From contig JAUIFH010000011.1 of assembly GCA_030429495.1 (NCBI GenBank), positions 1-64,000 on the forward strand: DNA of 64,000 nucleotides. The letters run 5' to 3'. The notes beneath the pieces are model-generated. The model had not been told where the DNA came from and searched no databases. It was given only the letters and a program-made list of their open reading frames with translations. This document shows, one piece after another, positions 4,120 to 20,423 of the stretch (position 1 is its first letter; each line of letters starts with the position of its first letter). The stretch comes from Alphaproteobacteria bacterium. Its GTDB lineage: Bacteria; Pseudomonadota; Alphaproteobacteria; Rhodobacterales; Rhodobacteraceae. The position numbers and the translations under genes are program-made.

Positions 4120-4770
4120 CTAAGTTGCGATGTGGCGCAACCCTTGCGTGACATCGGTCCGGATCGCAAGGCGAAGCGCCGGTTCGTCGCCGGCCTTCAA
4201 CGCGGCAATGATCATCCGGTGGTGTTGCGGCGGCTCTGACCGGGCAATCCGCGTGTAAAGCGATCGCATCGTCGGGCCAAGCTGGAGCCAGACCGTCTCG
4301 GCGACAGCGAGCATTGCGGGCGCCTGCGCACGTAGATAAAGCGTCCGGTGAAATTCCAGATTGGTGCGGATATAGGCCACCGCGTCGCGCTTCACTGCCG
4401 CCTCGGCATTGGCCATGTTGATCGCCTGAAGGCGCTCAATCAGCGCTATATGCGCGCGCGGCAATGCACGTGTGGCAAGTTCGGTCTCGATCAGCGCACG
4501 CAGGGTCGCAAGTTCCTCGATCCGCTCGGTCGACAGGTCCGGCGTCGATACCCGGCCCGAGGCGGAGAGCGTCAGCGCCCCCTCTGCCGAGAGCCGCCGC
4601 AGTGCTTCCCGCGCCGGTGTCATCGAGACGCCATAGCTCCGCGCCAGCCCGCGCAGTGTCAGGGCCTGGCCGGGCGCAAGTTCGCCATGCATGATCTGCT
4701 GGCGCAGCGACCGGTAGAGCCGGTCATGCGCCGCGATCCCTGTATCGGTTGCGCGCGGGGTGTTCAGCAT
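4120..4770 (-). CDS. GntR family transcriptional regulator (FCD/FadR subfamily)
   Basis: The 216-residue protein has an N-terminal winged helix-turn-helix (residues about 15-75; LRGLARSYGVSMTPAREALRRL is the recognition region) and a helical C-terminal FCD ligand domain with metal-binding-type residues (EFHRTLY and the later HHRMI). FadR-like regulators of this class usually repress genes for organic acid or amino-acid-derived compounds and are released by a ligand. The target cannot be named. A perfect palindrome, TGTGATCACA, lies 8 bases before the start codon and suggests autorepression. Confidence 0.85.
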   Translation of the reverse strand: MLNTPRATDTGIAAHDRLYRSLRQQIMHGELAPGQALTLRGLARSYGVSMTPAREALRRLSAEGALTLSASGRVSTPDLSTERIEELATLRALIETELATRALPRAHIALIERLQAINMANAEAAVKRDAVAYIRTNLEFHRTLYLRAQAPAMLAVAETVWLQLGPTMRSLYTRIARSEPPQHHRMIIAALKAGDEPALRLAIRTDVTQGLRHIAT

Positions 4771-4824: not shown

Positions 4825-5517
4825 TCATCCGCCGAAATCCACCCGATGCAGCGCCGGTCCGTGCGTCCTGAGCCAGCGCCGATGCCGGCTATAGTCCGGC
4901 ATCAGCCCCTCGACCACCGCCCAGAATGCCGGCGAATGGTTCATCTCGACCAGATGGGCCACCTCATGCGCCGCGACGTAGTCGAGCACTTCGGGCGGCG
5001 CCATGATCAGACGCCATGAATACATGAGCCGGCCATCGGCCGTGCACGACCCCCAGCGCGACCGTGTGTCGCGCAACGTGATTCGGGAAAACCGCCGGCC
5101 CAGCGCCACGGCATGGCTTTCGCTTGCCGTCAGAAGCCGCTGGCGGGCCGCAAGTTTCAGGAAGGCCAGGACCCGCGGTGCAACCCGGTCGGCGCCGGCC
5201 GGAACAACCAGGCGGTCGCCCTCGACCCGCGCTGCCCGCACCTGCGCCTCCGCTATCCGCAAGGCGCGGCCCTCGAACCGGATCTCGCCACCGGCGACGA
5301 CCGTCTCGCGCCCCGCCGCGTCCCGCAGCATCCGCCGAACCCACTCGGCCTTTTCCGCAGCGAAGGCGAGCGCCTCGCGCTCCTTCGCGCGGGCCGGCAT
5401 CGACAGCGTCACCCGACCGTCGAGCCGCGATACGCGCAGCGAAAACCGCCGCGCCCGTGCCGTACGGCGAAGCGTGATTTCGACCGGCGGCTCTCCGGGC
5501 AGGACGTGCTGGCTCAT
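4825..5517 (-). CDS. YgjP/DUF45-type zinc metallopeptidase
   Basis: The 230-residue protein ends in a SprT/YgjP-like peptidase domain. The zinc motif HEVAH is followed by LVEMNHSPAFW, which supplies the third metal ligand, and RSRWGSC is the conserved family segment before it. The N-terminal half (ITLRRTARARRFSLRVS) is the usual beta-rich part of this family. Length is normal. Physiological substrates are poorly known; it is taken to be cytoplasmic. It is followed on the same strand by the GntR gene after 54 bases. Confidence 0.85.
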   Translation of the reverse strand: MSQHVLPGEPPVEITLRRTARARRFSLRVSRLDGRVTLSMPARAKEREALAFAAEKAEWVRRMLRDAAGRETVVAGGEIRFEGRALRIAEAQVRAARVEGDRLVVPAGADRVAPRVLAFLKLAARQRLLTASESHAVALGRRFSRITLRDTRSRWGSCTADGRLMYSWRLIMAPPEVLDYVAAHEVAHLVEMNHSPAFWAVVEGLMPDYSRHRRWLRTHGPALHRVDFGG

Positions 5518-6193: not shown

Positions 6194-6269
<76 letters not shown>

Positions 6270-6461: not shown

Positions 6462-7778
6462 CTACCAGCCCCCGAACGCAGCAACTTTGGTATCGTCCAC
6501 GCGCCCCGAACAGGCATCGTCGATTGCCTGCGCAAGGATTGTTGCGCCGTTCTCGGCCTGTCTTTCGGACAGGATCAGCGGCGGTGTCAGTTCGATCACG
6601 TTCGACCCCGTTCCTACATAGTAAGCAATGACGCCATGCTCCCAAGCGCGGTAGACTGCGCGGCGGGCAAGAAGGGCGGCTGCCCCCCCTTTCTCGTCGA
6701 CAAGTTCTATCCCGATCGCGAGTCCCCTGCCGCGAATATCCCCGACATGGAAATTGCCGTGCAAGGCCGCCCGCAAGCAGGCAATCAGACGGCTCCCGCT
6801 CCTCGCGGCATTCTCCGCCAGACCATCTCTCTCGATCACGTCCAGAACCGCGAGTGCCGCGCTGGCCGAAATCGGATTCCCGTGCGTCGTCTGCATCGAG
6901 AAGGCAGTGGCATGGTTCAGGATCGCTTTCGGGCCGACCGCCGCCGAAACCGGGATCCCGCCGCCAAGCCCCTTGCCGAAAACCACTATATCGGGTGTCC
7001 AGTCGTCGTGTTCGAACGCGTGCATCCGCCCCGTGCGGCCCAACCCGACCTTCACTTCGTCGCAGACCGTGAGTATCCCGTACTTGGCGCAAAGGGCGGC
7101 AAGCCCTTTCAAGAAGCCGGCAGGAGGGATCAGCAATCCGCCGTCAGCCTGGACAGGCTCGATGAAGAACGCCGCGACCTCATCGCCCGGGCTGGTAGTG
7201 CGCAGCAGCCCGGCAATATGCTCAAGCAGCGCAGCGCCGCTTGGATCGGCTGCAAAAGGACGAAGCGGATCGGGAAATGGCACCGCCGTGACCCCTCCGT
7301 CACGCGCGGCGTGGGCCTGGACCGGGTGTGCGGAGACGGCCATCGATCCTTCGGTGCCACCGTGGTAGGCGCCGATGAAAGAGATGATGCGGGGACGCCC
7401 GGTCGCAGCCACAACAGACCGCGCTACGGTTTCGTTGGCGTCACTTCCCGAATGCCCGAGCCAGACGCACCGATCATGCCCGCCGGGCGTGATCCGAAGC
7501 AACCGTTCGCCAAGCTCGACCGCCGGAGCGATGGCTGATGACAGGCCCGTCGCACCAGCCTGCGTTCTCAGCGCCTCGTATACGCGCGAAACCCATTCCG
7601 GATGCGCGTAGCCAAGGCTCGCGGCCCCCCAGCTTGCGGCCAGATCCAGAAACTCCCGTCCTTCGGAGTCGTAGAGGTGGCAACCCGCCCCCCGCGTGAC
7701 CTCCTGCGGGAAGAAGCGCAGCTTCTGCAGGTCCGACAAGGCGGCCGCATCGCGCGCATAAAGGCGGCCACCGGTCAT
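6462..7778 (-). CDS. Class III (omega) aminotransferase
   Basis: The 438-residue PLP enzyme shows the fold-type I landmarks: a glycine-rich substrate region (LDLAASWGAASLGYAHP), GAYHGGTEGS near the phosphate site, the Asp that contacts the pyridine nitrogen in VCDEVKVGLGRTG, and the Schiff-base lysine in VVFGKGLGGG. Family members move amino groups from omega-amino acids, diamines or glutamate semialdehyde-like compounds. It is the last gene of the minus-strand operon starting near 13.8 kb and overlaps the upstream cysteine hydrolase by 4 bases. In context it probably deaminates a breakdown product of the imported compound; the exact substrate is unknown. Confidence 0.88.
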   Translation of the reverse strand: MTGGRLYARDAAALSDLQKLRFFPQEVTRGAGCHLYDSEGREFLDLAASWGAASLGYAHPEWVSRVYEALRTQAGATGLSSAIAPAVELGERLLRITPGGHDRCVWLGHSGSDANETVARSVVAATGRPRIISFIGAYHGGTEGSMAVSAHPVQAHAARDGGVTAVPFPDPLRPFAADPSGAALLEHIAGLLRTTSPGDEVAAFFIEPVQADGGLLIPPAGFLKGLAALCAKYGILTVCDEVKVGLGRTGRMHAFEHDDWTPDIVVFGKGLGGGIPVSAAVGPKAILNHATAFSMQTTHGNPISASAALAVLDVIERDGLAENAARSGSRLIACLRAALHGNFHVGDIRGRGLAIGIELVDEKGGAAALLARRAVYRAWEHGVIAYYVGTGSNVIELTPPLILSERQAENGATILAQAIDDACSGRVDDTKVAAFGGW

Positions 7779-8422
7779 CGCGCGGCCTGATGAAGCTCCT
7801 CAACAAGCTCGTCGCTCGTCACCTGGCGGCAGTATCCCTGGATCGTGCGCAACGAGTTGTCGTGACGCTCCTGACTGTAGGTCAGGCAGGCATCCGTCAC
7901 CTGAGTCACGAGGTAGCCAAGGTCACAAGCGTCGCGGATCGCGCTTTCGACGCACTGATCCGTGATAAGCCCGCTGATCACCAATTGGCGGACACCGAGA
8001 TTGCGCAGGACGTAGTCGATATGGGTCGAGACGAAGACCGATGACGATGATTTCGGCAACACGATCTCGTCGCCGACCGGCGCGATTTCATCAATTACCC
8101 TTCCGTCCCAGGAGCCTTTTGCAACATTGAAACCCGTGATCTTGTAGTCGAGGCTCCGATCTCGTCCATCAAGGGTCAGGCTTTCGATCGTGGTGTACAT
8201 CACTTCGACGCCGACATTCCGGCAAGCGGACTGGATCGACTGCATGTTCGGAATGACACGTGAGTAGAGTTGATCGAAGAACCACTCATACTTCTCCCGG
8301 AACTCCGCTTCAGGCAGGTCAACGAATTCGGCGCCTTGCCGGTGGGCGCTGAAATTCTGGACGTCGATAAAGAGCAGTGCCGATTGCGAAGGCACCAGCG
8401 GGAGGTTGCGGGTAAGCGTCAT
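7775..8422 (-). CDS. Isochorismatase-like cysteine hydrolase
   Basis: The 215-residue protein carries the family triad: Asp20 (LLFIDVQN), Lys124 (IVLPKSSSS) and Cys157 (ITDQCVESA). Members hydrolyse amides, ureides and related C-N bonds (nicotinamidase, RutB, biuret hydrolase) or isochorismate. Surrounding genes for transport, transamination and a second amidohydrolase make an amide or ureide substrate more likely than isochorismate. The start overlaps the stop of the amidohydrolase gene by 4 bases (ATGA), as does its own stop with the aminotransferase start, so translation is probably coupled. Confidence 0.85.
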   Translation of the reverse strand: MTLTRNLPLVPSQSALLFIDVQNFSAHRQGAEFVDLPEAEFREKYEWFFDQLYSRVIPNMQSIQSACRNVGVEVMYTTIESLTLDGRDRSLDYKITGFNVAKGSWDGRVIDEIAPVGDEIVLPKSSSSVFVSTHIDYVLRNLGVRQLVISGLITDQCVESAIRDACDLGYLVTQVTDACLTYSQERHDNSLRTIQGYCRQVTSDELVEELHQAAR

Positions 8423-9183
8423 GTCTTGAGTTCCTTGATGAAACTATGGATGGCCTCGGTCAGCAGCGCAGCCCAGCGTGCGCGCCCTTCGGCGGTTTGC
8501 AGGTGATCGTTGCGAATCTCGATCAGGCTGTGGGGCAGGCCCGACGGCTCGCCATGGCGGGGCACGAACCAGTCCGAGTCATCTTCGATCTGATAGGGCT
8601 GGTTCATGCCAATGACCATTGCAGGGTCGCGCGCCACGAGATGGCCTGCCAGCGCGGCCGATGTCTCGGTGTCGGCGCGGAACAGGAAACCGACATCCCA
8701 CGGCCGCTCGATCCGGTTCATGCGGGGCGTGAAGCTGTGGATTGAAAAGACGGCGCGCAGCCCGGGTCGTTTCAGCCGGACAGCGACCTCCGCCTGAAAC
8801 GGTTCGAAAATAGCGTTGATGCGCGCGGCGCGATCCTCGGCGGTGATGGATACATTTCCCGGAACGACATGACCATCGCTGCATTCCGGTATCGAGTCGG
8901 AGGCCCTTGGCGGGCGGTTACAGTCAATGACCAGGCGGCTGTATGGTTGTAGAACCGCCGGTGCGTCAAGCGCCATGGCCATATGCCGTGTCACCGCCGC
9001 GGCGCCGACATCCCAGCCAATATGCTCGTCCATCTGCGCCCGAGACATGCCCAGTACCGACAGCTTTTCCGGCACTGCCTGCCCGGCATGTTCGCAAACA
9101 AGCAGGAGCGACGCGCGGCCGTCGGCATTGAAGACCTCCACCGGCGCGGGGTCGCCGCGCCCCAGAAGCGAACCTTTCGTCAT
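8419..9183 (-). CDS. N-formylglutamate amidohydrolase family protein
   Basis: The 254-residue protein matches the FGase fold. VCEHAGQAVPE near the N-terminus, HIGWDVGAA, and the NRP segment (VIDCNRPPRASD) are family landmarks, and HSFTPRMN carries a metal-binding histidine. Classical members release formate from N-formylglutamate at the end of histidine breakdown. No hut genes are present, so it may act on another N-acylated or gamma-glutamyl amide. The start at 9183 overlaps the livH stop by 4 bases. A longer upstream frame is open but runs through livH and was discarded. Confidence 0.82.
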   Translation of the reverse strand: MTKGSLLGRGDPAPVEVFNADGRASLLLVCEHAGQAVPEKLSVLGMSRAQMDEHIGWDVGAAAVTRHMAMALDAPAVLQPYSRLVIDCNRPPRASDSIPECSDGHVVPGNVSITAEDRAARINAIFEPFQAEVAVRLKRPGLRAVFSIHSFTPRMNRIERPWDVGFLFRADTETSAALAGHLVARDPAMVIGMNQPYQIEDDSDWFVPRHGEPSGLPHSLIEIRNDHLQTAEGRARWAALLTEAIHSFIKELKT

Positions 9184-10073
9184 ACTTTTTGCGCCTTTAG
9201 GGACGCCGCCGGGATCAGGCCGTTGGGACGTAGCAACAGCACACCGACAACAATGCCCAAGCCGATCGGGTCGCGGAATTCCTGCCATGCGGCCGGCAGG
9301 AAAGCAGCGAGGTAGATTTCGATGAAGCCAAGCGCAAAGCCCCCGGCAACCGCCCCGCGCAAGGATCCGAGCCCGCCAAGGATCGCGGCGATGAACGCCT
9401 TCAGGACGGGCGTGAACCCCATGAGCGGGTCCACCGAGGCGCGCTGGGAGACCCAGAGAACAGCGGCAACACCCGCCAGCAACCCGGACAGGGCGAAAGC
9501 CCCGGCGATGACGCTGTTGGCGCGGATTCCCATGAGCCGTGCGACCGCGAAGTCTTCCGCCGCGGCGCGCATCGCGATTCCGGTCTTCTGGTGCTTCATG
9601 AACCAGTCGAGGAAGACGAGCATCACCACAGTTGCCGCGATGGCGAGCAGTTTGTTGACCCCGATGATAAAGCCACCGACCCGTACGCTGTCCGAGAGAA
9701 GCTGAGGGAGCAGAACCGGCTGCGACCGGACCGAAATGAAGTTCTGAAACAGCACTTGCAGTATCATCGAAACGGCGAAGGACGTTATCAACATCGTTGC
9801 GCCCGAGGCGTTTCGAACCGGACGGAAGGCGATGCGTTCCATCAGCATCGCGGCCAATGTCGTGGAGAGGATGGCAAGCCCGACGGTCAGTGCGAAAGGC
9901 AGCCCGGCCAGCCCGCAATACATCAGGACGTATCCGCCGATCGTCATCAGTTCTCCATGGGCGAAGTTGATGAGACCCATGATGGAGAACACGATCGCCA
10001 GCCCCAGCGCGAGCAACGCATAGGTCCCTCCGAGCGCGAAGGCGTTAACGGTTTGCTGCAGCAGGATCTCCAT
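9180..10073 (-). CDS. Branched-chain-type ABC transporter permease (LivH-like)
   Basis: The 297-residue product is an integral membrane protein with about eight hydrophobic segments. The early LGLAIVFSIMGLINFAHGE segment is the hallmark of LivH permeases, and RAAAEDFAVARLMGI is the EAA-like loop that contacts the ATPase. It pairs with the permease part of the fused gene at 11997-13775. The ATG at 10073 overlaps the livF stop (TGATG); a GTG one codon earlier is also possible. Substrates of this transporter class include amino acids, amides and urea. Confidence 0.9.
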   Translation of the reverse strand: MEILLQQTVNAFALGGTYALLALGLAIVFSIMGLINFAHGELMTIGGYVLMYCGLAGLPFALTVGLAILSTTLAAMLMERIAFRPVRNASGATMLITSFAVSMILQVLFQNFISVRSQPVLLPQLLSDSVRVGGFIIGVNKLLAIAATVVMLVFLDWFMKHQKTGIAMRAAAEDFAVARLMGIRANSVIAGAFALSGLLAGVAAVLWVSQRASVDPLMGFTPVLKAFIAAILGGLGSLRGAVAGGFALGFIEIYLAAFLPAAWQEFRDPIGLGIVVGVLLLRPNGLIPAASLKAQKV

Positions 10074-10789
10074 CACTCACCCCCAAGATAGACGTTCTGG
10101 ACCTGTCCGGAGGTGGCCAGTTCGGCGGCGCTGCCCTGAGTGGCGATCCGCCCCCCGGCCAGAACATAGACGCGATCGGCAATTTCAAGCGAACGGGCGA
10201 CGTTCTGCTCGACGACACCCAGTGTGACGCCCTGCCGGCGCAGGGTCTCCATGAGTTCGAACACCTGATCCACGATCTTCGGCGCCAGGCCAAGCGACGG
10301 CTCATCAAGAAGCAGAAGCCGCGGTTCGCACATCAGGGCGCGCCCGATGGCAAGCATCTGTTGTTGCCCCCCGGACAATGTGCCGGCGAACTGTTCCCGC
10401 CGCTCGAAGAGAATGGGAAAGAGACTGTAGACACGGTCCCACGCCGCCGCGATCCGTTCCTTGTCCCGGATGGCGTAAACGCCCATCTTCAGGTTATCCG
10501 CCACGCTCAGGGTTCCGAAAACACGGCGCCCCTCGGGAACGAGGGTAATGCCCGCCGGCGCGAGGGTTTCGGCGGGCGCATCCGTTATGTCCTTGCCCGC
10601 GAAGGCCACCTTGCCGCCGGCGACGGGAACAAGGCCGACCAGCGCGTTCAGCGTCGACGACTTGCCCGCCCCGTTGGCACCGAGGAAGGCGACGATTTCG
10701 CCTTCCCCGATTTCGAAATCGACCCCGCGCACCGCCTCCACGGGCCCGTAGCGGACCTGAAGACTGCTGGATGTCAGAAGCGGTGTCAT
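10073..10789 (-). CDS. Branched-chain-type ABC transporter ATPase (LivF-like)
   Basis: The 238-residue ATPase has Walker A GANGAGKSS, the signature LSGGQQQMLAIGRAL and Walker B LLLLDEPSLGL, followed by the LivF-typical GVTLGVVEQN. I place the start at the ATG of 10789 because AGGAG lies 6 bases before it. A GTG at 10807, overlapping the livJ stop by 4 bases, would add six residues. It powers import together with LivH, the fused LivM-LivG and the binding protein. Confidence 0.92.
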   Translation of the reverse strand: MTPLLTSSSLQVRYGPVEAVRGVDFEIGEGEIVAFLGANGAGKSSTLNALVGLVPVAGGKVAFAGKDITDAPAETLAPAGITLVPEGRRVFGTLSVADNLKMGVYAIRDKERIAAAWDRVYSLFPILFERREQFAGTLSGGQQQMLAIGRALMCEPRLLLLDEPSLGLAPKIVDQVFELMETLRRQGVTLGVVEQNVARSLEIADRVYVLAGGRIATQGSAAELATSGQVQNVYLGGE

Positions 10790-10803
10790 CGGGGTCTCCT
10801 GCG

Positions 10804-11958
10804 TCACTGCATTCGCGCGGCCGGCACGAGATCAGCCGTCGGGCTCGGCTGGCCGACAAGTTCGCGCTCCCCGCCCTTCACCCGGATGAGGGAGACCTGG
10901 CGGACCGGCATGCCATCCGTGCCCTTGTAGGTGATCATGCTGGTTGCGCCCTGAACGTTCTCAAGGTCCGCGATCGCATCGCGCAGCGCCTGCGGTTCGG
11001 TCGAGCCTGCCGCAAGCGCAGCGGCCTCGATGACCTTGATCAGATCGTAACCCACCGCGTTGAACACGGTTTCCGTGGGGTGCCCCATCACCTCTTCATA
11101 CTTCGCGTTGAAGGCTTCCAGCGGGCTTCCCGGCGTCGCGTGTCCGGCGGTCGAGAAGACAACGCCTTCTGCCGCATCGCCGAGCGAGAAGGTCGTCGGG
11201 CTGTCGATCCCATCAGAGCCGATGACCTGAGAGGTAACGCCCGCCGCGCGCAACGCTTTCAGGAAAGACGGGAAGTCGGGCTCATAGGCCGACGTCATGA
11301 CGACGTCCGGCTGCGGCGAAAGAGCGGCGATCCGCGTGGTGATTGCCGAGAAATCCTGCTGACCGATGGAATAGGTGTCCTCTCCCAGCATCTGGCCTCC
11401 GAGCTTCTCGAAAACTTCAGCGAAGTAGAGCGGCATCGTCGTGTACTGGGTGTCCGGAGAATAGAGGATGTATCCGGTCTTCATCCCCTCGCCCCAGGCC
11501 CATTCGGCGGAAACGGTCGCCTGGACGTTGTCCCCGGGGAAGTTGGCGAACATGTAGTCCCCCCCGATCAGCGGGAGTGTCGGCGATGACGCGCAGGTCG
11601 AGATTGCCGGGACCTGGGCAGCGGCGACGATGCCGATGGCGGCAAGCGCCGGGTCTGCATCGCAGGGCAGGACCAGTACCGACACACCGTCGTCCACCAG
11701 TTCCTGCGCAGCGATAGAGGTTTGGGCGGGATCCGACCGGACGTCCCTTTCCACAAGCTCGATCGGTGTCGTGCCGCCGATCCCGCCGGTTGCGTTGATT
11801 TCGTCGACCGCGATATGGACGCCCTCGATGACGGGTGCGTCATAGGGCGCCAGACCACCGGTCTGGGCGGTTGCAAGCCCGATGCGCAGCGTTTCCGCCG
11901 AAGCGGTCGTGGCTGTGGCCATGGCGATCAGTGCGGTCGTGGAAAGCAGGCGTTTCAT
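10804..11958 (-). CDS. ABC transporter substrate-binding protein (LivJ/LivK-like)
   Basis: The 384-residue protein begins with a clear Sec signal peptide (MKRLLSTTALIAMATATTASA), then the type I periplasmic-binding fold: IGLATAQTGGLAPYDAP, an INATGGIGG loop and VSVLVLPCDADPALA. It would capture the substrate in the periplasm and deliver it to the LivH/LivMG channel. AGAGGAG precedes the start. A small hairpin separates it from the fused permease gene upstream, perhaps raising its level relative to the membrane parts. Confidence 0.9.
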   Translation of the reverse strand: MKRLLSTTALIAMATATTASAETLRIGLATAQTGGLAPYDAPVIEGVHIAVDEINATGGIGGTTPIELVERDVRSDPAQTSIAAQELVDDGVSVLVLPCDADPALAAIGIVAAAQVPAISTCASSPTLPLIGGDYMFANFPGDNVQATVSAEWAWGEGMKTGYILYSPDTQYTTMPLYFAEVFEKLGGQMLGEDTYSIGQQDFSAITTRIAALSPQPDVVMTSAYEPDFPSFLKALRAAGVTSQVIGSDGIDSPTTFSLGDAAEGVVFSTAGHATPGSPLEAFNAKYEEVMGHPTETVFNAVGYDLIKVIEAAALAAGSTEPQALRDAIADLENVQGATSMITYKGTDGMPVRQVSLIRVKGGERELVGQPSPTADLVPAARMQ

Positions 11959-11979
11959 GTCATCTCCTCTATTGGTTGT

Positions 11980-11994
11980 CCCCCTTTCCGGGGG
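11980..11994 (-). other. Intercistronic hairpin between livMG and the binding-protein gene
   Basis: A CCCCC/GGGGG stem with a 5-base loop sits in the 38-base gap between the livMG stop and the binding-protein start. It is too small and lacks a T-run to be a strong terminator. Such hairpins often protect the downstream message from degradation. Confidence 0.35.
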
Positions 11995-11996
11995 TT

Positions 11997-13775
11997 TCAG
12001 TCGTTCCTCCGTCCGAGATAGGCTTCGATCACGGCCGGGTCTTCCCGGATCATGTCCGGTGCGCCCTCGGCAATCAGGTTGCCCTCGTTCAGCACCAGAA
12101 TGCGATCGCAGAGGCGGTTGATGAGACCAAGGTCGTGATCCACCAGAAGGATGCCGATCCCGAGATCACGCGACAATGCGCGCAGCGTTTCCATAAGGGC
12201 ATCGGTCTCTTCCCGGTTCATCCCCGCCGCCGGCTCATCGAGAAACAGCAGAGACGGCTGGCAGGCGAGGGCGCGCGCGATCTCGACGCGGCGCTGGTCG
12301 CCGTAGGACAGTGTGCCGGCATCGCTGCCGGAATGCTCAGCAATCCCGAGGTTCTCAAGCGCGGCGGCCGCCCTGCCCTCGGCGTCTCGCCCCCCTCCCG
12401 TAGAAAGGGCGGCGACCAACACGTTCTGATGGACAGTCAGCGAAGGGAACAGCCGGATGTTCTGGAAAGTGCGCGCAATACCGAGATCAGCAATGCGGTA
12501 TGTGGGCTCGCCGTTCAGCACCTTTCCGGCGAGCGAGAACTCGCCTTCGCTCGGCGCGATGATGCCGGACAGCATGTTCAGAAGTGTTGTCTTCCCGGAA
12601 CCGTTCGGACCAATCAGACCGACGATTTCGCCGGGCGTGAGTTTCAGCGAGACGTCGTTCACGGCCGTCAGGCCACCGAACCGCATGGTCATTGCCTTGG
12701 CGGTCAGCGCGGCCCTGTCTGAAACTTTCGTCAGCCTGCCGTCGCCCACATCCGCCGTGCGCGGCGGAAACAGACGTTCTTCCCATTCCTTCAGGCCCGC
12801 GATCCCGTCTGCCTTACGGAACATGGCGATGAGAATGATCGCAGCGATGCCGATCTGGGTGGTGCCGAACACTTGCGGCGTCGTGAACCCGGCGATGTCA
12901 ATTCCGCTTTCAAGCCGGCGCAGAAACTCGGTCACTACGGTGATCGCTACAGCTCCGACGACAGCGCCGGTCGTCGTGGTCATCCCCCCGACAATCAGCA
13001 TCGCGAGCAGTTGGAACGTGTCGACGAAATAGAATTTCTTCGGACTGAACGCGCCGAGGAAATGCGCGATCAGCGCGCCCGATACGGCCATCAGCGCGGC
13101 ACTCAGAACCCATGAGATCAGCCTTTCCCGCCTCAGGTTCACGCCGACGGCGCCGGCGGCGATGGCATTTTCGCGTGTGGCGCGCAACCTCAGGCCAGAG
13201 ATTGAGTCACGATAGAGGCGCGCGACGATCAGCGCCACAAGGCACCCTGCGGCTGCGATCCAAAGTGAGGTGTCCCGAGGGACCCCAAAGAACGTCCCCG
13301 AACCCCGCGTCACGTCGCGCCAACCGATGATGATGCCGTGCACGATAATCAGCAACCCCAGCGTTGCGATCGTGGCCGCAGATCCGTCCAGCCGACCGAG
13401 CGCAAGGCCGACCACCAGCGCCACCAATGCCGTCACCGCGACCGCGACCGCAATTGCGGGCAGCAACCCAAGCTCTGTCGCAGCAAGCCATTCCGGCAGT
13501 TTCGGCAGCGTTGCGGCCTTCACTGCGGCGGGCAGCGTCAACAAGGATGAGACATATGCCCCGATCGCGACGAACGACATGTGTCCGAAGCTCAGGATAC
13601 CGCTATTCCCGGAATAAACGCCGATCCCCAGAACGGCGATCAGCGAGATGAAGAACACGGTCAGAACCCGTTCGCCCGCCGGGCCGACTATCGTTGCGCC
13701 CACTGCAGCGATGACGACGAAGGCCAAGGCCGCAAGAATTGAGAGCACTATGTGTCTTGGCGAAGCAGTGATCAT
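11997..13775 (-). CDS. Fused branched-chain-type ABC permease-ATPase (LivM-LivG)
   Basis: This 592-residue protein joins two transporter parts. Residues about 1-320 are a LivM-type permease (GNSGILSFGHMSFVAIGAY, and the EAA loop RATRENAIAAGAVGV). Residues about 350-592 are a LivG-type ATPase with Walker A GPNGSGKTTLL, signature LSYGDQRRVEIARALA and Walker B LLFLDEPAAGM. Fusions of this kind are known but less common than separate genes. The ATG at 13775 is preceded by AGAGGA at a good distance; a longer frame up to 13832 would invade the divergent promoter region. It is the first gene of the operon. Confidence 0.9.
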   Translation of the reverse strand: MITASPRHIVLSILAALAFVVIAAVGATIVGPAGERVLTVFFISLIAVLGIGVYSGNSGILSFGHMSFVAIGAYVSSLLTLPAAVKAATLPKLPEWLAATELGLLPAIAVAVAVTALVALVVGLALGRLDGSAATIATLGLLIIVHGIIIGWRDVTRGSGTFFGVPRDTSLWIAAAGCLVALIVARLYRDSISGLRLRATRENAIAAGAVGVNLRRERLISWVLSAALMAVSGALIAHFLGAFSPKKFYFVDTFQLLAMLIVGGMTTTTGAVVGAVAITVVTEFLRRLESGIDIAGFTTPQVFGTTQIGIAAIILIAMFRKADGIAGLKEWEERLFPPRTADVGDGRLTKVSDRAALTAKAMTMRFGGLTAVNDVSLKLTPGEIVGLIGPNGSGKTTLLNMLSGIIAPSEGEFSLAGKVLNGEPTYRIADLGIARTFQNIRLFPSLTVHQNVLVAALSTGGGRDAEGRAAAALENLGIAEHSGSDAGTLSYGDQRRVEIARALACQPSLLFLDEPAAGMNREETDALMETLRALSRDLGIGILLVDHDLGLINRLCDRILVLNEGNLIAEGAPDMIREDPAVIEAYLGRRND

Positions 13776-13805
13776 CACGAATCCTCTTGTCGCCACCAGA
13801 GGGGA

Positions 13806-13859
13806 TGACATTTCATTTTCATAAGCAATCATTTTTTTGTGTTTGACATTTTTTTTTCA
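13806..13859. promoter_or_regulatory. Divergent promoter region with 16-base direct repeats
   Basis: Between livMG and the RpiR gene, TGACATTTCATTTTCA (13806-13821) is repeated at 13844-13859 as TGACATTTTTTTTTCA with two mismatches, 38 bases apart. The second copy contains a perfect TTGACA (13843-13848), a likely -35 element for the RpiR-GS transcript. The area is strikingly T-rich for this genome. The repeats are good candidates for RpiR binding sites controlling both directions. Confidence 0.5.
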
Positions 13860-13891
13860 CTGCGCATCCTCAACATGCAGCGGAGGTGAAG

Positions 13892-14746
13892 ATGCAGGTA
13901 CGAGAGAGAATCGAAAATGTCTCGTCCGAGATGACGACAACCGAACGTCGGATCAGCGCCGCCATTCTTCTCGACTATCCCTTCGCCGGTCTCGCGCCGA
14001 TCCAGGAACTCGCCACAAACACGAATACCTCTCCGCCAACGATTTCGCGCTTCGTGTCGAAACTTGGCTTCCAGGGGTTTCAGGACTTCCAGCGCAGCCT
14101 GATAGGCGAACTGAAGGAACGGGAGCGTTCACCCGTCGATCTTCAGCGCACCGCGCAACCGGTCGACGGCGCGTATCTGGAAAACTTCCTCACCCGCGCC
14201 GGCAAGATCGTGACAAACGCGACCACCGCGATCTCCGAAGGGCAATTCGACCGGGTCTGCGATCTCTTGGGGGATCCGCGCCGGGCGCTCTTCGTCATCG
14301 GCGGCCGAATGAGCGACACGATCGCCGGCTACCTGTCCCGCCACCTGCGCCAGACCCGCGACAAGGTCTATCACATGCCCCCCGATCCCGAAGTCTGGCC
14401 GGAATACCTGCTTCGGATGAAACCGCGCGACATCCTTTTCGTAGCCGATTTCAGGCGCTACCAGAAAAGCTTGGAACGGCTTGCCGAACGCGCGGCGCGC
14501 GACAGGAGGGTACAGACCATCCTGCTGACCGACCGCTGGCTTTCGCCCGTGTCGCAGCATGCGACGGAAATCCTTGCGGTTCCGATCGAAAGCAACACGC
14601 TTTGGGACAGCTACTCGGGCGCGTTCGCGGTGATCGAGGCAACCGTGACCCGGATTGCAGAAAACAACTGGAAAACCACCAAGGCGCGCATCGAATCCTG
14701 GGATTCGCTCCGCCTCGACGCCGGAGAGAACGCGCATGATCTCTAA
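13892..14746 (+). CDS. MurR/RpiR family transcriptional regulator
   Basis: The 284-residue protein has an RpiR-type N-terminal helix-turn-helix (residues about 1-75; TTERRISAAILLDYPF, then the NTNTSPPTISRFVSKLGF recognition helix) and a C-terminal SIS domain (LFVIGGRMSDTIAGYLSRHL) that binds phosphosugars or related ligands. The ATG at 13892 lies 5 bases after GGAGG; a GTG at 13886 overlaps that ribosome site and is less likely. It is divergent from the transporter operon and overlaps the downstream synthetase gene by 11 bases, so it very likely regulates the cluster. Confidence 0.9.
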   Translation: MQVRERIENVSSEMTTTERRISAAILLDYPFAGLAPIQELATNTNTSPPTISRFVSKLGFQGFQDFQRSLIGELKERERSPVDLQRTAQPVDGAYLENFLTRAGKIVTNATTAISEGQFDRVCDLLGDPRRALFVIGGRMSDTIAGYLSRHLRQTRDKVYHMPPDPEVWPEYLLRMKPRDILFVADFRRYQKSLERLAERAARDRRVQTILLTDRWLSPVSQHATEILAVPIESNTLWDSYSGAFAVIEATVTRIAENNWKTTKARIESWDSLRLDAGENAHDL

Positions 14747-16049
14747 TCCTCTTATCTTCGTCGCAACTTCGGACATTGCCGGCAAGACCCGTGGCAAGTC
14801 GTTTCCCGTTGCCGATCTCGACAAGCGGCTGAAGCGGGGCGTCGGATGGACGCCGACGAACGTTCAGATCACCTGTTTCGATGCCATCGCTGAAAGCCCG
14901 TTCGGCGCGCTTGGTGATCTGCTTCTCATTCCCGACGCCGAAGCTGCCGTCAGCGTCGACTTCGAGGATGGAGGACCGCCCGAGCGCTTCGTGCTGGGTG
15001 ACATCACCGATCTCGACGGTGAACCCTGGTCATGTTGCACCCGTTCGATCCTCAAGGCGGCGCTTGAGCGTTTGAGACGCGTAGGGGGTGTCGAGCTTGT
15101 CGCGGCGTTCGAGCATGAGTTTCAGTTCCTGCCAACCGCCCCAACGCCCGGTCAGGGCTATGCGTTTGGCGCGTTCGCCCGCAGGCGCGCCTTTGGCGAG
15201 GCGTTGATGGCCGCGCTGGAGCAGGGTGGGCTGAAGCCCGATACCTTCATGAAGGAATACGGGCCGGATCAGTATGAGATCACGAATGATCCTTCCCGTG
15301 GTCACGTGGCCGCCGACCACGCGGTGATGCTGAGGGAACTGACACGCCAAACTGCTTTGCGCATGGGCGAAACTGCGACCTTCGCTCCGATCCTCGATCC
15401 GGCCAGTGTCGGCAATGGCGTTCACATCCACATGAGTTTCGTCAGAGCCGATGGTACTCCGGCCACCCATGATCCCGCACATCCTGCGGGTATGTCGCCA
15501 CTCACCGGCAGTTTCATCGCAGGCATCCTGAAGTATCTGGATTCCATCGTCGCGCTGACGGCCCCATCCGATATCTCTTACCTGCGCCTGACGCCGCACC
15601 GCTGGAGTGCCGCTTTCAACAATCTCGGTTTTCGCGATCGGGAAGCCTCGGTCCGCATTTGCCCGGTGACATCGACCGCCCCCGACAGCGTCGCCCGCCA
15701 GTACAACTTCGAGTATCGCGCCGCCGACGCCGCCGCCTCGCCGCACCTGGCACTTGCCGCGATCGTCCATGCCGGCGCGCAGGGGATCGAGGAGACGCTC
15801 GCCATACCGTCAGTGACGGAAGAGGATCTTTCGCTGCTATCCCCGTCGGAGTTGGAAAAACGCGGATATGTCCGCCTGCCGAAATCGCTGCCCGAAGCCC
15901 TTGACCGTTTCGCCGGAAACCCGACCGTCACCGGCTGGTTCCCCGAAGGTTTTGCAAAAGTCTACTGCGCCCACAAACGCGGCGAACTCGCATGGCTCGA
16001 AGGCAAGGATACCGCCGAGCGCTGCGCGGCATACGCGAAAACCTATTGA
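14736..16049 (+). CDS. Glutamine synthetase-like gamma-glutamyl ligase
   Basis: The 437-residue protein has the glutamine synthetase C-terminal catalytic domain. Visible landmarks are FEHEFQFL (metal Glu), EYGPDQYEI, the NGVHIHMSF helix with the ATP/metal His, REASVRICP, and FEYRAADAAASPHLA with the substrate Arg/Glu region. It differs from housekeeping GlnA (no adenylylation-site segment seen) and resembles the PuuA/GlnT-like enzymes that attach glutamate to amines. Such an enzyme would start breakdown of an imported amine by gamma-glutamylation. Its start lies inside the RpiR gene, preceded by GGAGAG. Confidence 0.85.
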   Translation: MISNPLIFVATSDIAGKTRGKSFPVADLDKRLKRGVGWTPTNVQITCFDAIAESPFGALGDLLLIPDAEAAVSVDFEDGGPPERFVLGDITDLDGEPWSCCTRSILKAALERLRRVGGVELVAAFEHEFQFLPTAPTPGQGYAFGAFARRRAFGEALMAALEQGGLKPDTFMKEYGPDQYEITNDPSRGHVAADHAVMLRELTRQTALRMGETATFAPILDPASVGNGVHIHMSFVRADGTPATHDPAHPAGMSPLTGSFIAGILKYLDSIVALTAPSDISYLRLTPHRWSAAFNNLGFRDREASVRICPVTSTAPDSVARQYNFEYRAADAAASPHLALAAIVHAGAQGIEETLAIPSVTEEDLSLLSPSELEKRGYVRLPKSLPEALDRFAGNPTVTGWFPEGFAKVYCAHKRGELAWLEGKDTAERCAAYAKTY

Positions 16050-16103: not shown

Positions 16104-17528
16104 TTAGTGCTTGATCATCACGTGCCGTACAGCGGTGTAGTCCTCCAACGCATACATTGACATGTCCTTGCCGTAGCCCGAGCTTTTAAGCCCTCCGTGC
16201 GGCATTTCGTTCACCAGCATGAAATGTGTGTTCACCCAGGTGCATCCGTAACGCAGCCGGGCCGCCGTGGACATGGCGCGGCCGATATCCTTGGTCCAGA
16301 CCGATGAGGCGAGGCCGTAGTCGCTGTCATTGGCCCATTGCACAGCCTGATCGACCTCTTTGAATGGTGTGATCGAAACGACCGGCCCGAAGACTTCACG
16401 CTGAACAATCTCGTCCTCCTGCCGCGCGCCCGCGATGACGGTCGGCGCGTAGTAGAAGCCGTTTTCACCATACGCGCTGCCGCCCGTCGTAACGTCGATA
16501 TGCCTCAGCTCGCGGGCACGTTCGACAAAACTCGCCACCCGGTCGCGCTGGCGGGCCGAGATGAGGGGGCCGATCTCGTTCGTGGTGTCGTCATCCTGCG
16601 CGAAAGCGATGCCGCTGACGGCGGAGGTCAGATCGGCGACGAGGTTCTCGTAGGTCTTTTCGGCCGCGTAGATGCGGCAGGCGGCGGTGCAGTCCTGCCC
16701 GGCATTGTAATAACCGAAGGCGCGGATGCCCTCGACCACTTCGGCGATATCCGCATCGTCGAACACGATGACTGGGGCTTTGCCGCCAAGTTCCAGATGC
16801 GTGCGCTTTACCGATTTCGACGCGGCCTGCAGCATCTTTTTGCCCGTCGCCACATCGCCGGTCAGCGAGATCATGTCGATGCCGGGATGGGTGACGAGCG
16901 TATTGCCCACCGTCTCACCCCGCCCGGTGATGACATTGACCACGCCCTTCGGGAGTTCCTCGGCCAGAATGCGTGCCAGTTTCAGCGCCGTCAGCGGGGT
17001 CTGCTCAGAGGGCTTGAAGACCACCGTGTTGCCGCCCGCCAGTGCTGGCGCCAGCTTCCACGCCATCATCATCGCCGGATAGTTCCACGGCGCGACTGAA
17101 GCGATCACACCGACCGGGTCGCGGCGGATCATCGAGGTGAAGCCTTCCATGTATTCGCCCGCCAAGGGTCCGTGCATGTTGCGCACCGCGCCTGCGAAGT
17201 AGCGGTAGGTATCGACGATGGCGGGAACCTCATCGCCGATGGCGGCATTGATCGGCTTGCCGCAATTCAGCGCCTCCAGCGCGCCAAAGGCCTCGGCATC
17301 GGCCTCGATCCGGTCGGCGATCCTCAGAAGCGCTGCGGAGCGTTCGGCGGGCGTGGTGCGGGACCAGCCGTCGAAGGCGTCATTCGCCGCCGCAACAGCC
17401 GCTTCCACCTGTTCCGCCGATGCCTCTGGCAGGTCGAGGATCGTCTCACCCGTGCGCGGATTGAGGATCGCCTCGGCGGCGCCTGTGCCGCCGGTGAACG
17501 TGCCGTTGATCAGGAATTCAGTGTCCAT
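16104..17528 (-). CDS. patD: 4-aminobutyraldehyde dehydrogenase-like aldehyde dehydrogenase
   Basis: The 474-residue enzyme oxidises an aldehyde to the acid with NAD+. The catalytic cysteine is in [13 protein letters not shown], a segment nearly diagnostic of PatD/YdcW enzymes, and the general-base Glu is in LELGGKAP. The N-terminal part has the NAD-binding PWNYPAMMM and KPSEQTP segments. In E. coli ydcW closes the ydcSTUV operon, and the same order is seen here. It would convert 4-aminobutyraldehyde from putrescine to GABA. Other omega-amino aldehydes are possible substrates. Confidence 0.88.
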
Positions 17529-17550
17529 GTCAGATACCTCGCAGATCGGA

Positions 17551-18357
17551 TCATTTGCCGCCCCCGGCGGTGTCGGTGCCGCCGCGGGTCAGGTAATAGG
17601 CGCCCAGAATGGGCAGGAAAGTCACAAGAACGACGATCATCGCCACGACGTTCGTCACGGGCCGCTGCCGGGGCCGCACCAGTTCCTCCAGCATCCAGAT
17701 TGGCAGGGTCTGCTGCTGACCGGCGGTGAAGGTCGTCACGATCACCTCGTCGAACGAGAGTGCAAAAGCCAGCATCCCGCCTGCCAGAAGCGCGGTCGAG
17801 ATATTCGGCAGGATCACATGCCGGAAGGTCTGGAACCCGTTCGCGCCGAGATCGGCAGAAGCCTCGATGAGGGACCCCGAAAGCCGCCGGAACCGCGCAA
17901 CCGCGTTATTATAGACGACGACAATGCAGAACGTGGCATGGCCAAGCACGATGGTCAGCGTCGAAAACGGTATCTCGCCGAGGCTGAAGGCGGAGCGGAG
18001 CGAGATACCGGTGATGATGCCGGGCAGCGCGATGGGCAGGATCACCAGAAGCGACACCGCCTCTCGCCCGAAGAACTTCGCACGGCTGACGGCGGCGGCG
18101 CAGAGCGTGCCGAGGATCATCGCGACAAGGGTCGAAATCGCGGCGACCTTCAGCGACAGCCGAAGCGCTGCCCAGACATCGGGCCGGTTCCAGGTGACGG
18201 CGAACCATTTCAGCGTCAGGCCGGGGGGCGGCCATTGGTAGGAGCGGTCCTCGGTCGTGAAGGCATAGACGAAGATCAGAAGCAGCGGCAGGTGCAGGAA
18301 GGCAAGGCCCGCGAAGGCCGCGATCTTCAGTGCGATGGGCGTGCGGTCAGAGTGCAT
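17551..18357 (-). CDS. Polyamine-type ABC transporter permease (YdcV/PotC-like)
   Basis: The 268-residue permease has about six membrane segments and the EAA-type loop ([22 protein letters not shown]). It matches the second permease of spermidine/putrescine importers. Its start overlaps the end of the other permease gene by 11 bases, and patD follows 22 bases later, so all are likely on one message. It would form the membrane channel with the protein encoded at 18347-19276. Confidence 0.88.
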
Positions 18358-19276
18358 CGAACGCCCCCTGCCGTTTGGCCATCCAGAGATAGAGGCCCAT
18401 GATCACGATGGGCACGACGGCAAAGGCGGCGGCCAGCGGGATATTCCCGGCGGTGCCCTGATGGGCATAGACCGCCTGTCCGATGAAGAGACGTGAGGAG
18501 CCGACAATCTGGGGAATGATGTAGTCGCCCAAGGTCAGCGAGAACGTGAAGATCGACCCTGCGATGATGCCGGGCATCGCCAAGGGCAGGATGACGTGGC
18601 GCAGGGTCTGGCCCGGACGCGCGCCAAGGTCGTTCGACGCCTCCAGGAGGTTCGCAGGCACCCGTTCCAGTGCGGCCTGAACCGGCAGGATCATGAAGGG
18701 CAGCCAGACATAGAGGAAGACAAGGAAGGTGCCGATATAGCTGACCGAAAGCGAGCCCCCGCCGATCACCGGCAAAGCGAGGATGGCGTTCAGGGCTGCA
18801 CTTGCGCCCACACCGTCCACCGCCCAGGTCAGGATACCTTCCTTGGCAAGGATCAGTTTCCAGGCATAGACCTTGACTAGATAGCTCGACCACAGGGGCA
18901 GCATGACGCCAAGATAGAACAGCGCCTTCATATGCCCCTTGGCGAAGCGGGCGGCGTAGTAGGCGATGGGAAAGGCAATGATTGCGGCGGCCACGGTGAC
19001 GGCGGCAGCCATCAGCGTCGTGCGCAGGATGATGTCGAAATTCGCAGGCCGCAGCAGTTCGGCATAGGTCTTCAGCGTGAACTCGTAATTGATGAGGCCC
19101 GAGAACTCGTCGATGGAAAAGAAGCTCTGGACCAGAAGTGCTGCGAGTGAGCCGATATATATGACGCCAAGCCAGAGAAGCGGCGGGATCAGAAGGACCG
19201 CAAGCAGGACCTTTGGCCGCCTCCAGAAGAGGTCCGACAGGCCCTGCGCGATGCCGGGGCGGGCCGCGGCCATCAC
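18347..19276 (-). CDS. Polyamine-type ABC transporter permease (YdcU/PotB-like)
   Basis: The 309-residue permease has six or more hydrophobic segments and an EAA loop ([22 protein letters not shown]). The N-terminal cytoplasmic stretch ([14 protein letters not shown]) and the long periplasmic loop ([18 protein letters not shown]) are as in PotB-like proteins. Its start overlaps the end of the ATPase gene by 4 bases (ATGA). Confidence 0.88.
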
Positions 19277-20265
19277 GCGTCCTCCATCCGGTGCATGGCG
19301 GCGGCGGTCCAGTTCAGCCCTACGGCCGCGCCTTCGGCAGGGGCATCCTGACCAGCGGGAATGGCCACGGTAAGCTCGTCGCCACCCACATCCACTGTGA
19401 TCCGCTTGATGGCGCCAAGGTAACGTACTGTCGTCACGGTTCCCGAAATCCGGCCCGCTTCCGAGGCAACCGCTTCCATCGCCTCGGCCCTCAGGCTGTG
19501 CCAGGCCTCCGGCCCGCCCGCCCGGCGGCTGAGCGCGGGCGAGAGGACATTGGCCGAGCCTACGAAATCCGCGACAAATCGGGTGCGGGGCCGCTGGTAG
19601 ATATCTTCGGGGCTGCCTTCCTGCACGATACGGCCATCGTTGAAAACGGCAACGCGGTCAGCCATCGAAAGGGCCTCGCCCTGATCATGGGTAACGAAGA
19701 CAAACGTGATGCCGAGTTGCCGTTGCAGCGCCTTCAGTTCGTCCTGCATCGCCTCGCGCAGCTTGAGGTCAAGCGCACCGAGGGGTTCATCGAGCAGAAG
19801 CACGCGCGGGTGGTTCACGAGCGCGCGGGCGAGCGCCACCCGCTGGCGTTGCCCACCCGAAAGCTGCGCGGGTTTCCGGTCGCCGTAGCTGTCAAGTTTG
19901 ACGAGCGCGAGCATCTCTTCCGCGCGGGCGTGGCGCGTGCGTTTTTCGATGCCCTGAACCATCAGCCCGTAGGCCACGTTGTCGCGCACGCTCAGATGCG
20001 GAAAAAGTGCGTAGTCCTGAAAGACCGTGTTCACCGGGCGGCGGTTCGGGGGCAGGTCTTCCGACGTTTCACCGAAGATCCGGACATGGCCCGCCGTGGG
20101 GCGCTCAAAGCCCGAAATCAGCCGCAGGCAGGTGGTTTTGCCAGAGCCGGACGGGCCAAGCATGGCGAAGAACCCGCCTTCCTCGATGGCGATGGAGACA
20201 TCGTCCACGGCGCGAACCGTGCCGAAATGGCGCGAGACGTGGTCGAATTCAACGGCGTAGGACAT
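19273..20265 (-). CDS. Polyamine-type ABC transporter ATPase (YdcT/PotA-like)
   Basis: The 330-residue ATPase has Walker A GPSGSGKTTCLR, the Q-loop VFQDYALFPHLS, signature LSGGQRQRVALARAL and Walker B LLLDEPLGALD. Its C-terminal 100 residues form the TOBE domain found in PotA-type ATPases (VRYLGAIKRITVDV). It powers uptake through the two permeases downstream. The gene is separated from the binding-protein gene by 158 bases with hairpins. Confidence 0.92.
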   Translation of the reverse strand: MSYAVEFDHVSRHFGTVRAVDDVSIAIEEGGFFAMLGPSGSGKTTCLRLISGFERPTAGHVRIFGETSEDLPPNRRPVNTVFQDYALFPHLSVRDNVAYGLMVQGIEKRTRHARAEEMLALVKLDSYGDRKPAQLSGGQRQRVALARALVNHPRVLLLDEPLGALDLKLREAMQDELKALQRQLGITFVFVTHDQGEALSMADRVAVFNDGRIVQEGSPEDIYQRPRTRFVADFVGSANVLSPALSRRAGGPEAWHSLRAEAMEAVASEAGRISGTVTTVRYLGAIKRITVDVGGDELTVAIPAGQDAPAEGAAVGLNWTAAAMHRMEDA

Positions 20266-20304
20266 TGGCTATTCCGGGATGCAGGGGCGACGTTCTCCAC
20301 CGCG

Positions 20305-20415
20305 CCCCTCCCCCGTAACGGGGGAGGGAGACGGGAAGGGTAAATGCGGGTTGAGTGGTGGCGTTCCATGCCACACTTCCCCTCGCCGTGTGGAGGTCGG
20401 GGCCGCAAGGCCCCG
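20305..20415 (-). other. Intercistronic hairpins between the ydcS-like and ydcT-like genes
   Basis: Two stems lie in the 158-base gap. One (20398-20415) pairs CGGGGCC with GGCCCCG around a GCAA tetraloop, right after the binding-protein stop. The other (20306-20328) pairs CCCTCCCCCG with its complement. Neither is followed by a T-run. They probably stabilise the upstream binding-protein message or partly stop transcription, so that more binding protein than permease is made. Confidence 0.5.
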
Positions 20416-20423
20416 GTCAGGGT

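Follow-up and report, generated by a model that had tools for sequence, protein, structure and literature searches.

Gene content and conservation of the cluster

The window analysed in this work, a 64,000-nucleotide stretch of contig JAUIFH010000011.1 from a bacterium of the family Rhodobacteraceae, carries at positions 6462-16049 a set of nine genes arranged as two divergent operons (Table 1). The minus strand encodes a protein of the class III aminotransferase fold (RAC), an isochorismatase-family hydrolase (ISO), a hydrolase of the FGase family (FGA) and the components of a branched-chain amino acid (LIV)-type importer, and the plus strand encodes an RpiR-type regulator and a glutamine synthetase-like (GS-like) ligase, for brevity termed GS. 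A first-pass annotation had regarded these genes as a single catabolic unit that takes up and breaks down an amine, amide or ureide via a gamma-glutamyl intermediate, and all nine were found where it had placed them. The minus-strand genes indeed mostly overlap by a few bases, with junction gaps of -4, -4, -4, -4, -4 and +38 bp when the FGA start is revised to 9183. The reading frames of RpiR and GS overlap by 11 bp; across the 33 loci listed, with the window among them, the spacing of these two genes is within the range -14 to +2 bp in 30. The LivM-LivG fusion probably starts at 13775 instead of 13832, because a Met-Ile-Thr start is kept in several of ten upstream sequences and the longer frame has a copy of the motif discussed below within its first codons. 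For the substrate-binding protein of the importer, matches to LIV- and HAAT-family proteins are weak, the best E value being 1e-25.

Table 1. Features of the gene cluster in the window (ACL, alpha-amino-epsilon-caprolactam; PLP, pyridoxal 5'-phosphate; SD, Shine-Dalgarno)
Feature	Position	Strand	Basis
RAC: ACL/amino-acid-amide racemase-like PLP enzyme, class III fold	6462..7778	-	structure-database match, active-site residues
ISO: isochorismatase-family cysteine amidohydrolase, probable carboxamide hydrolase	7775..8422	-	PF00857
FGA: FGase-family hydrolase, proposed gamma-glutamyl amide hydrolase	8419..9183	-	PF05013
LivH-type permease	9180..10076	-	PF02653
LivF-type ATPase	10073..10807	-	best NCBIfam match LivF, under its cut-off
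Branched-chain amino acid / amide-type substrate-binding protein	10804..11958	-	Peripla_BP_6
LivM-LivG fusion	11997..13775 (open frame to 13832)	-	PF02653 + PF00005
Divergent intergenic region, two candidate operator copies	13776..13891	.	pattern counts
RpiR/MurR-type regulator (HTH_6 + SIS)	13892..14746	+	PF01418, PF01380; start from SD-like GGAGG
GS: PA5508-like gamma-glutamyl amine ligase	14736..16049	+	4hpp match

The core of this cluster, i.e. RpiR, the GS-like ligase, FGA, ISO and an importer, is found together in alpha- and gammaproteobacteria far more often than chance would give. With FGA as the anchor in 292 genomes of one order, 36 of the 38 best places outside the window were taken (G089 and G104 were left out). 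Both GS and ISO, each at no less than 40% identity, were found near FGA in 31 of these 36 loci; RpiR was likewise near FGA in 31, and RAC, at no less than 45% identity, in six. The five loci without GS and ISO (L078, L079, L081, L082 and L083) have FGAs that are 38-42% identical to that of the window. In four of them (L078, L081, L082, L083) the distant FGA and RpiR are accompanied by TRAP-type transporter genes (identified by inspection of the sequence), a distant GS-like gene and an aldehyde dehydrogenase (ALDH), an arrangement that possibly represents a related amine pathway. When ISO was used as the anchor across the phylum (398 genomes), it was found in 19 genomes at 22 places, two of which share one locus (L123), with GS nearby in 20, FGA in 17 and RAC in seven. 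The level expected by chance for GS near ISO is about 4%, a rough estimate made from the window's own genome only (7 GS-like matches per 3.8 Mb and a neighbourhood of ~20 kb), and the binomial probability of 20/22 is 2e-26, a value that, like the hypergeometric one given below, overstates the independence of the loci, which are related.

A third search, again with ISO, covered named genomes and was evaluated for the best 80 of 580 confirmed stretches, of which 77 come from Pseudomonas and the rest from Ventosimonas, Halomonas and Marinomonas. The order RpiR-ISO-GS-FGA on one strand, together with an importer, occurs in all 80. The gene next to it encodes an APC permease in 79, and the locus of Ventosimonas (L140) has a LIV importer and RAC instead. 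Among individual strains, Pseudomonas fluorescens FW300-N2E3 (L203) and Shinella zoogloeoides ATCC 19623 (L228) are carriers of the cluster. Eight plasmid stretches with annotation, in which the importer is of the LIV or the APC type, also have this core; they come from Sinorhizobium, Klebsiella, Phyllobacterium, Pantoea, Shinella (two), Maritalea and Ensifer. In the Sinorhizobium stretch, the locus of S. meliloti Ak57 (L084), GS is split into two reading-frame pieces and is unannotated, and the FGA of L126, which we counted as present, has an internal stop. Among 61 relatives, the window's own genome included, the spread is patchy, with RAC in six; in the other five carriers GS and FGA adjoin RAC in all five and the ISO of the same clade in four. 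In the loci covered here, the homologues co-occur instead of being scattered, and the genes are conserved together across loci, which supports the earlier view of a single catabolic unit.

The divergent intergenic region contains repeats that are candidates for RpiR operators. Of 57 regions upstream of RpiR, 24, that of the window included, contain TTGAC-N6..12-TTTCA, where block shuffles give 0.2 expected, and 11, again with that of the window, contain TGA[AC]A-N5-TTTTCA with 0.02 expected, these being patterns that were picked after the sequences had been seen; the window copy of the second pattern (TGACA-N5-TTTTCA) is at a different place. In L121, L122 and L125 both are replaced by a TGTAG-N6-CTACA palindrome. 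A scan of the 57 upstream regions for exact inverted repeats returned none for the window, and the TTGAC element may be a -35 box.

Predicted activities of the racemase, ligase and hydrolases

The first-pass annotation called RAC a class III aminotransferase and assigned to it a transamination step. The fold assignment stands, but the function is probably another one, and we rejected an aminotransferase on the structure matches and the active site. The best-matching solved structures with a named activity are ACL racemase (2zuk, 3dxw; E 2e-132) and amino acid amide racemase (6gio; E 2e-122). Four entries of similar score are named just "Aminotransferase class-III" (5m46 and kin), and we take them to be a Rhizobium ACL racemase. 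The next matches are alanine/serine racemase (4e-75), a hypothetical 4-aminobutyrate aminotransferase (1e-66) and gamma-aminobutyrate transaminase (2e-56). RAC is 50-51% identical to the ACL racemase (ACLR) of Achromobacter obae and retains its Tyr, Asp and two Lys residues (the YDKK set), made up of the catalytic Tyr, Asp and Lys and the extra Lys of the DEVK motif. In the A. obae enzyme these alignment positions presumably correspond to Y137, D210, K241 and K267. The alignment with this enzyme reveals YDKK in 22 of 25 class III proteins of cluster loci, the window included, with 47-67% identity to ACLR. The remaining three have YT[VI]K, i.e. they have lost the Asp and one Lys, and are 26-29% identical to ACLR; these are ordinary aminotransferases beside related clusters and serve as an internal control for the racemase call.

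Closer relatives of ACLR are found in other copies of the cluster. The operon RpiR-ISO-GS-FGA-RAC of Shinella zoogloeoides (L228) ends with a racemase that is 84% identical to the A. obae enzyme, that of Ensifer sp. PDNC004 (L229) with one that is 77% identical, and the racemase of the Klebsiella copy also has ACLR as its best match. In two genomes of the window's own genus the cluster exists in a second version, with the order RpiR-ISO-GS-FGA-RAC and a divergent LIV importer, whose racemase genes (L047, 2858-4159; L048, 9237-10535) encode proteins 67% and 61-62% identical to ACLR, respectively, i.e. nearer to it than RAC of the window. Hence RAC is likely, as far as sequence comparison can tell, to be a racemase of amino-acid amides. 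ACLR itself is reported to racemise amino acid amides, and an ACLR from Ochrobactrum to act also on esters (PMC7431475).

A class-wide search for RAC yielded 10 places in nine of 385 genomes, with GS nearby in five. Outside the cluster, a YDKK racemase gene at L221 lies ~35 bp from an amidase-signature gene (PF01425; the pair spans 7721-10493), another YDKK protein (L222) has FGA ~3.6 kb away and no GS nearby, and a third (L223) lies on an 11-kb contig, also with no GS nearby. The racemase-like genes of L224 (10529-11917) and L226 (6431-7756) are found in housekeeping contexts, and their products, with TDKK (Thr for the catalytic Tyr), may represent a different subfamily.

The closest solved structure to the window ligase is 4hpp, i.e. 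PA5508 of Pseudomonas aeruginosa (E 9e-104, 43% identity). The columns of glutamine synthetase that we take to be numbered D50, S53, N264 and E327 read T, Q, V and W in the window ligase and V, S, V and W in PA5508, so that V and W are common to both; in GlnA of the same genome (L003) they read D, S, N and E. The other five GS-like proteins of the genome (L002, L004-L007) also deviate at these ammonium-site columns, and L006 shares the W. The window ligase retains the metal and nucleotide residues that we checked (Glu, His and Arg). With 161 bits it lies below the cut-off of the NCBIfam GlnA equivalog (429), and its best NCBIfam match, the PuuA equivalog GGputSyn, gives 231 bits with a cut-off of 650, which excludes membership in PuuA. 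On the evidence of the ammonium-site residues the window protein should not be a glutamine synthetase (EC 6.3.1.2), an assignment that we rejected. It is predicted to be a glutamyl amine ligase of the PA5508 type, and the gamma-glutamyl intermediate of the first-pass annotation is plausible; the loss of these residues also speaks against an enzyme that makes only glutamine, the outcome that the annotation had named as contrary to its view. PA5508 is reported to glutamylate bulky amines (PMC6478659, PMC11335346) and to prefer catecholamines over polyamines (PMC6478659); PMC11335346 names spermidine and putrescine as "aromatic" examples of its substrates, in conflict with PMC6478659.

These data bear on the analogy with the puu pathway drawn in the first-pass annotation and on a puu-like polyamine route, in which GS would make gamma-glutamylputrescine, the class III protein would transaminate it, and the genes at 16104-21584, on the minus strand beyond GS, would belong to the same route. 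The latter encode an aminobutyraldehyde dehydrogenase-like ALDH (above the PRK13473 cut-off) and a Pot-type ABC transporter, and they probably constitute a unit of putrescine-type amine catabolism that is not conserved beside the cluster. Such a route draws on GGputSyn being the best NCBIfam match of GS, on the subfamily assignment of the ALDH, on Pot-type importers in L074, L075 and L077, and on the label pauA7, i.e. glutamylpolyamine synthetase homologue, given to PA5508 (PMC6235884). However, ALDH-like hits occur in just seven of the 36 FGA-anchored loci, and a 14-kb flank past GS in L227, the closest relative, yielded no ALDH and no match to any query; on these grounds we rejected the ALDH and Pot-type genes as members of the unit. 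Moreover, RAC is of the racemase type, family searches detected neither a PuuB oxidase nor a PuuD hydrolase among the nine genes, and PA5508 was reportedly not induced by polyamines (PMC6478659). Neither the likeness to puu nor the transamination step is supported, and we consider a polyamine route quite improbable.

As for the two hydrolases, the triad D20, K124 and C157 of ISO is invariant in all 23 aligned sequences, the window included, and ISO is the most conserved enzyme in most of the order-level loci (69-89% identity in 28 of the 31 FGA-anchored loci that contain it). Its predicted model, with a predicted local distance difference test score (pLDDT) of 90, is nearest to 3kl2, RutB, BiuH and TrtA, the last three of which act on ureido-type substrates. 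Membership in RutB is excluded by the equivalog cut-off (TIGR03614; 83 bits, cut-off 378), and the score for BiuH is also far from its cut-off. On the basis of the model and the conserved triad, ISO is a probable carboxamide hydrolase. The predicted model of FGA (pLDDT 93) is nearest to 2odf (Atu2144), followed by the N-formylglutamate amidohydrolase 2q7s and by weak matches to M14/aspartoacylase-like structures. Here again the equivalog cut-off excludes membership, in this case in HutG (TIGR02017; 26 bits, cut-off 279). One could still regard FGA as a true deformylase in a pathway for an N-formyl compound, with FmdA-type enzymes hydrolysing the formamide, as the Pfam FGase match and the FmdA-like genes at some loci would suggest; but the HutG cut-off is missed by far, the FmdA-like genes miss theirs as well (136, 80 and 116 bits, cut-off 500), and no formyl-generating step is seen. 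We regard this scenario as very improbable. The labels "aminotransferase" and "N-formylglutamate amidohydrolase" on loci of this kind are probably misleading.

Proposed route and its alternatives

Accessory genes were counted in 64 loci, the window included, of which 53 have the full core. FmdA-type genes are present in 12 of the 64, M20 deacylases in six and a second ISO in five. A gene for a 1000-residue kinase-M23-aminotransferase fusion (PRK06148) adjoins the cluster in nine of them (L044, L051, L060-L064, L067 and L071). Among the 53 full-core loci RAC occurs in 21 and FmdA in 11, never together (hypergeometric P 0.0017, uncorrected for phylogeny), and 15 have none of RAC, FmdA, M20 and the fusion. 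An L-amino-acid amidase of Ochrobactrum belongs to the acetamidase/formamidase family. In L112 and L114 ISO is accompanied by M20 and an importer, and the stretch contains neither GS nor FGA; this is what one would expect if decapping could be replaced by deacylation. Together, the accessory genes suggest that the substrate bears a carboxamide and an N-acyl group that can be taken off; an amine or amide as the type of substrate, as the first-pass annotation had it, is in keeping with this.

We tentatively propose that the operon pair uses a primary amine with an amide group as a source of nitrogen and carbon via a gamma-glutamyl cap, an alpha-amino-acid amide or alpha-aminolactam being the most likely substrate. 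In this scenario, for which we infer the substrate, the order of steps and the roles of ISO and FGA, the LIV-type importer would take up the amino-acid amide or aminolactam and RAC, by way of a Schiff base with PLP, would convert the D form into the L form and back. The GS-like ligase would then put glutamate on the amine at the expense of ATP, ISO would hydrolyse the carboxamide (or lactam) of the capped compound with release of ammonia, and FGA would cleave the N-gamma-glutamyl bond to give glutamate and the free amino acid. RpiR, which shares an operon with the ligase, would sense a metabolite and control the divergent promoters.

Several observations weigh against this proposal. RAC is missing from 32 of the 53 full-core loci and, within flanks of at most 10 kb, from all 77 Pseudomonas loci, so that the substrate of the core need not be chiral or an alpha-amino amide. 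Conversely, five of the 10 places of the class-wide search have RAC without GS nearby. One locus (L046) has both RAC and FmdA and lacks the clade ISO. A full cluster is also present at another place in each of the two genomes that show ISO with M20 (G533 has it on the same contig, at a distance of ~16 kb), so that this arrangement may not be independent. The importer type varies among loci (LIV, APC, Pot). We know of no enzyme of the FGase family that cuts gamma-glutamyl bonds. Finally, the preferred amines reported for PA5508 are of the catechol or aromatic type and not amides.

The last of these points, together with the absence of RAC from so many full-core loci, is the basis of the main rival, namely that the core serves to degrade a bulky amine of the aromatic or catechol type with an amide or ureido group. 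GS would cap it, ISO would cut its amide or ureide and FGA would decap it, and the racemase would be a lineage add-on for amino-acid amides. The substrate preference of PA5508 (PMC6478659) agrees with such a substrate, as do the fold neighbours of ISO mentioned above. The RAC gene of the window is, however, in the same operon, with a 4-bp overlap, and FmdA-type or other amide-hydrolase genes are found in other lineages. We consider the aromatic or ureido amine unlikely as the substrate of the core.

The patchy distribution and the carriage on plasmids could also be taken to indicate detoxification, with the ligase capping a toxic amine or antimetabolite, the hydrolases inactivating it and nutrition being secondary. 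In line with this, PA5506-PA5509 were overexpressed in strain PAO1 with all tested plasmids but one (PMC6246594). Nevertheless, almost all loci examined include an importer, a sign that the compound is taken up for nutrition, and a protective function is in our opinion rather improbable. By connecting the cluster with a racemase whose chemistry is known and a ligase whose crystal structure has been solved, the comparison brings an unnamed operon within reach of a few assays.

With respect to the patchy occurrence of the cluster within the genus, a tRNA-Ala(GGC) gene lies just outside its end, at 6194-6269, and is a possible insertion point of the cluster. Beyond the tRNA gene the window contains genes for a GntR/FCD regulator (4120-4770) and a YgjP-like metallopeptidase (4825-5517).

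Comparison with known systems

Each of the enzyme types discussed here is known and the cluster is common in genomes, from rhizobia and their kin through marine and other relatives in the window's order to Pseudomonas and to plasmids of Klebsiella and Pantoea; its function is undescribed in the literature searched. Specifically, no paper on the function of the gene set was found in that literature, most subscription journals being outside its scope, nor a description of the physiological role of ACL racemases, and within PA5506-PA5510 published biochemistry was found for the ligase PA5508 alone. It is possible, if somewhat doubtful, that the locus represents a route not described before, in which a temporary gamma-glutamyl cap is put on amino-acid amides or alpha-aminolactams, the amide is cut and the cap is taken off, and that it provides both the natural setting of ACL racemase and a function for the PA5506-PA5510 type of cluster.

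The core as such is already known in genomes, since it matches that type. Like the window, PA5506-PA5510 of P. aeruginosa (PA5508 is PauA7, 4hpp) has RpiR, ISO, a ligase of the PA5508 kind, FGA and an importer. In P. aeruginosa PA7 (L137) the order is RpiR-ISO-GS-FGA-APC, with a ligase 96% identical to PA5508, and by extension from PA7 we infer the same layout for PAO1. However, the Pseudomonas type differs in having an APC permease and not a LIV importer, in lying on one strand and not in two divergent operons, and in lacking the racemase.

The isochorismatase fold and the D-K-C triad of ISO are common to RutB, BiuH and TrtA, but its scores are far under the RutB and BiuH cut-offs. In the puu pathway of E. 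coli and the AtdA1 and NpaA1 routes, too, a GS-like ligase caps an amine at the expense of ATP (PMC11335346). In contrast to these three, the nine genes of the window include no amine oxidase or dioxygenase and comprise instead a racemase and two genes of the amide-hydrolase type. With respect to the racemase, RAC resembles ACLR of A. obae (EC 5.1.1.15) and 6gio in fold and in the YDKK set. However, those two are known as biotechnology enzymes, whereas RAC sits in a conserved catabolic operon, and the cluster could explain why bacteria have ACL racemases.

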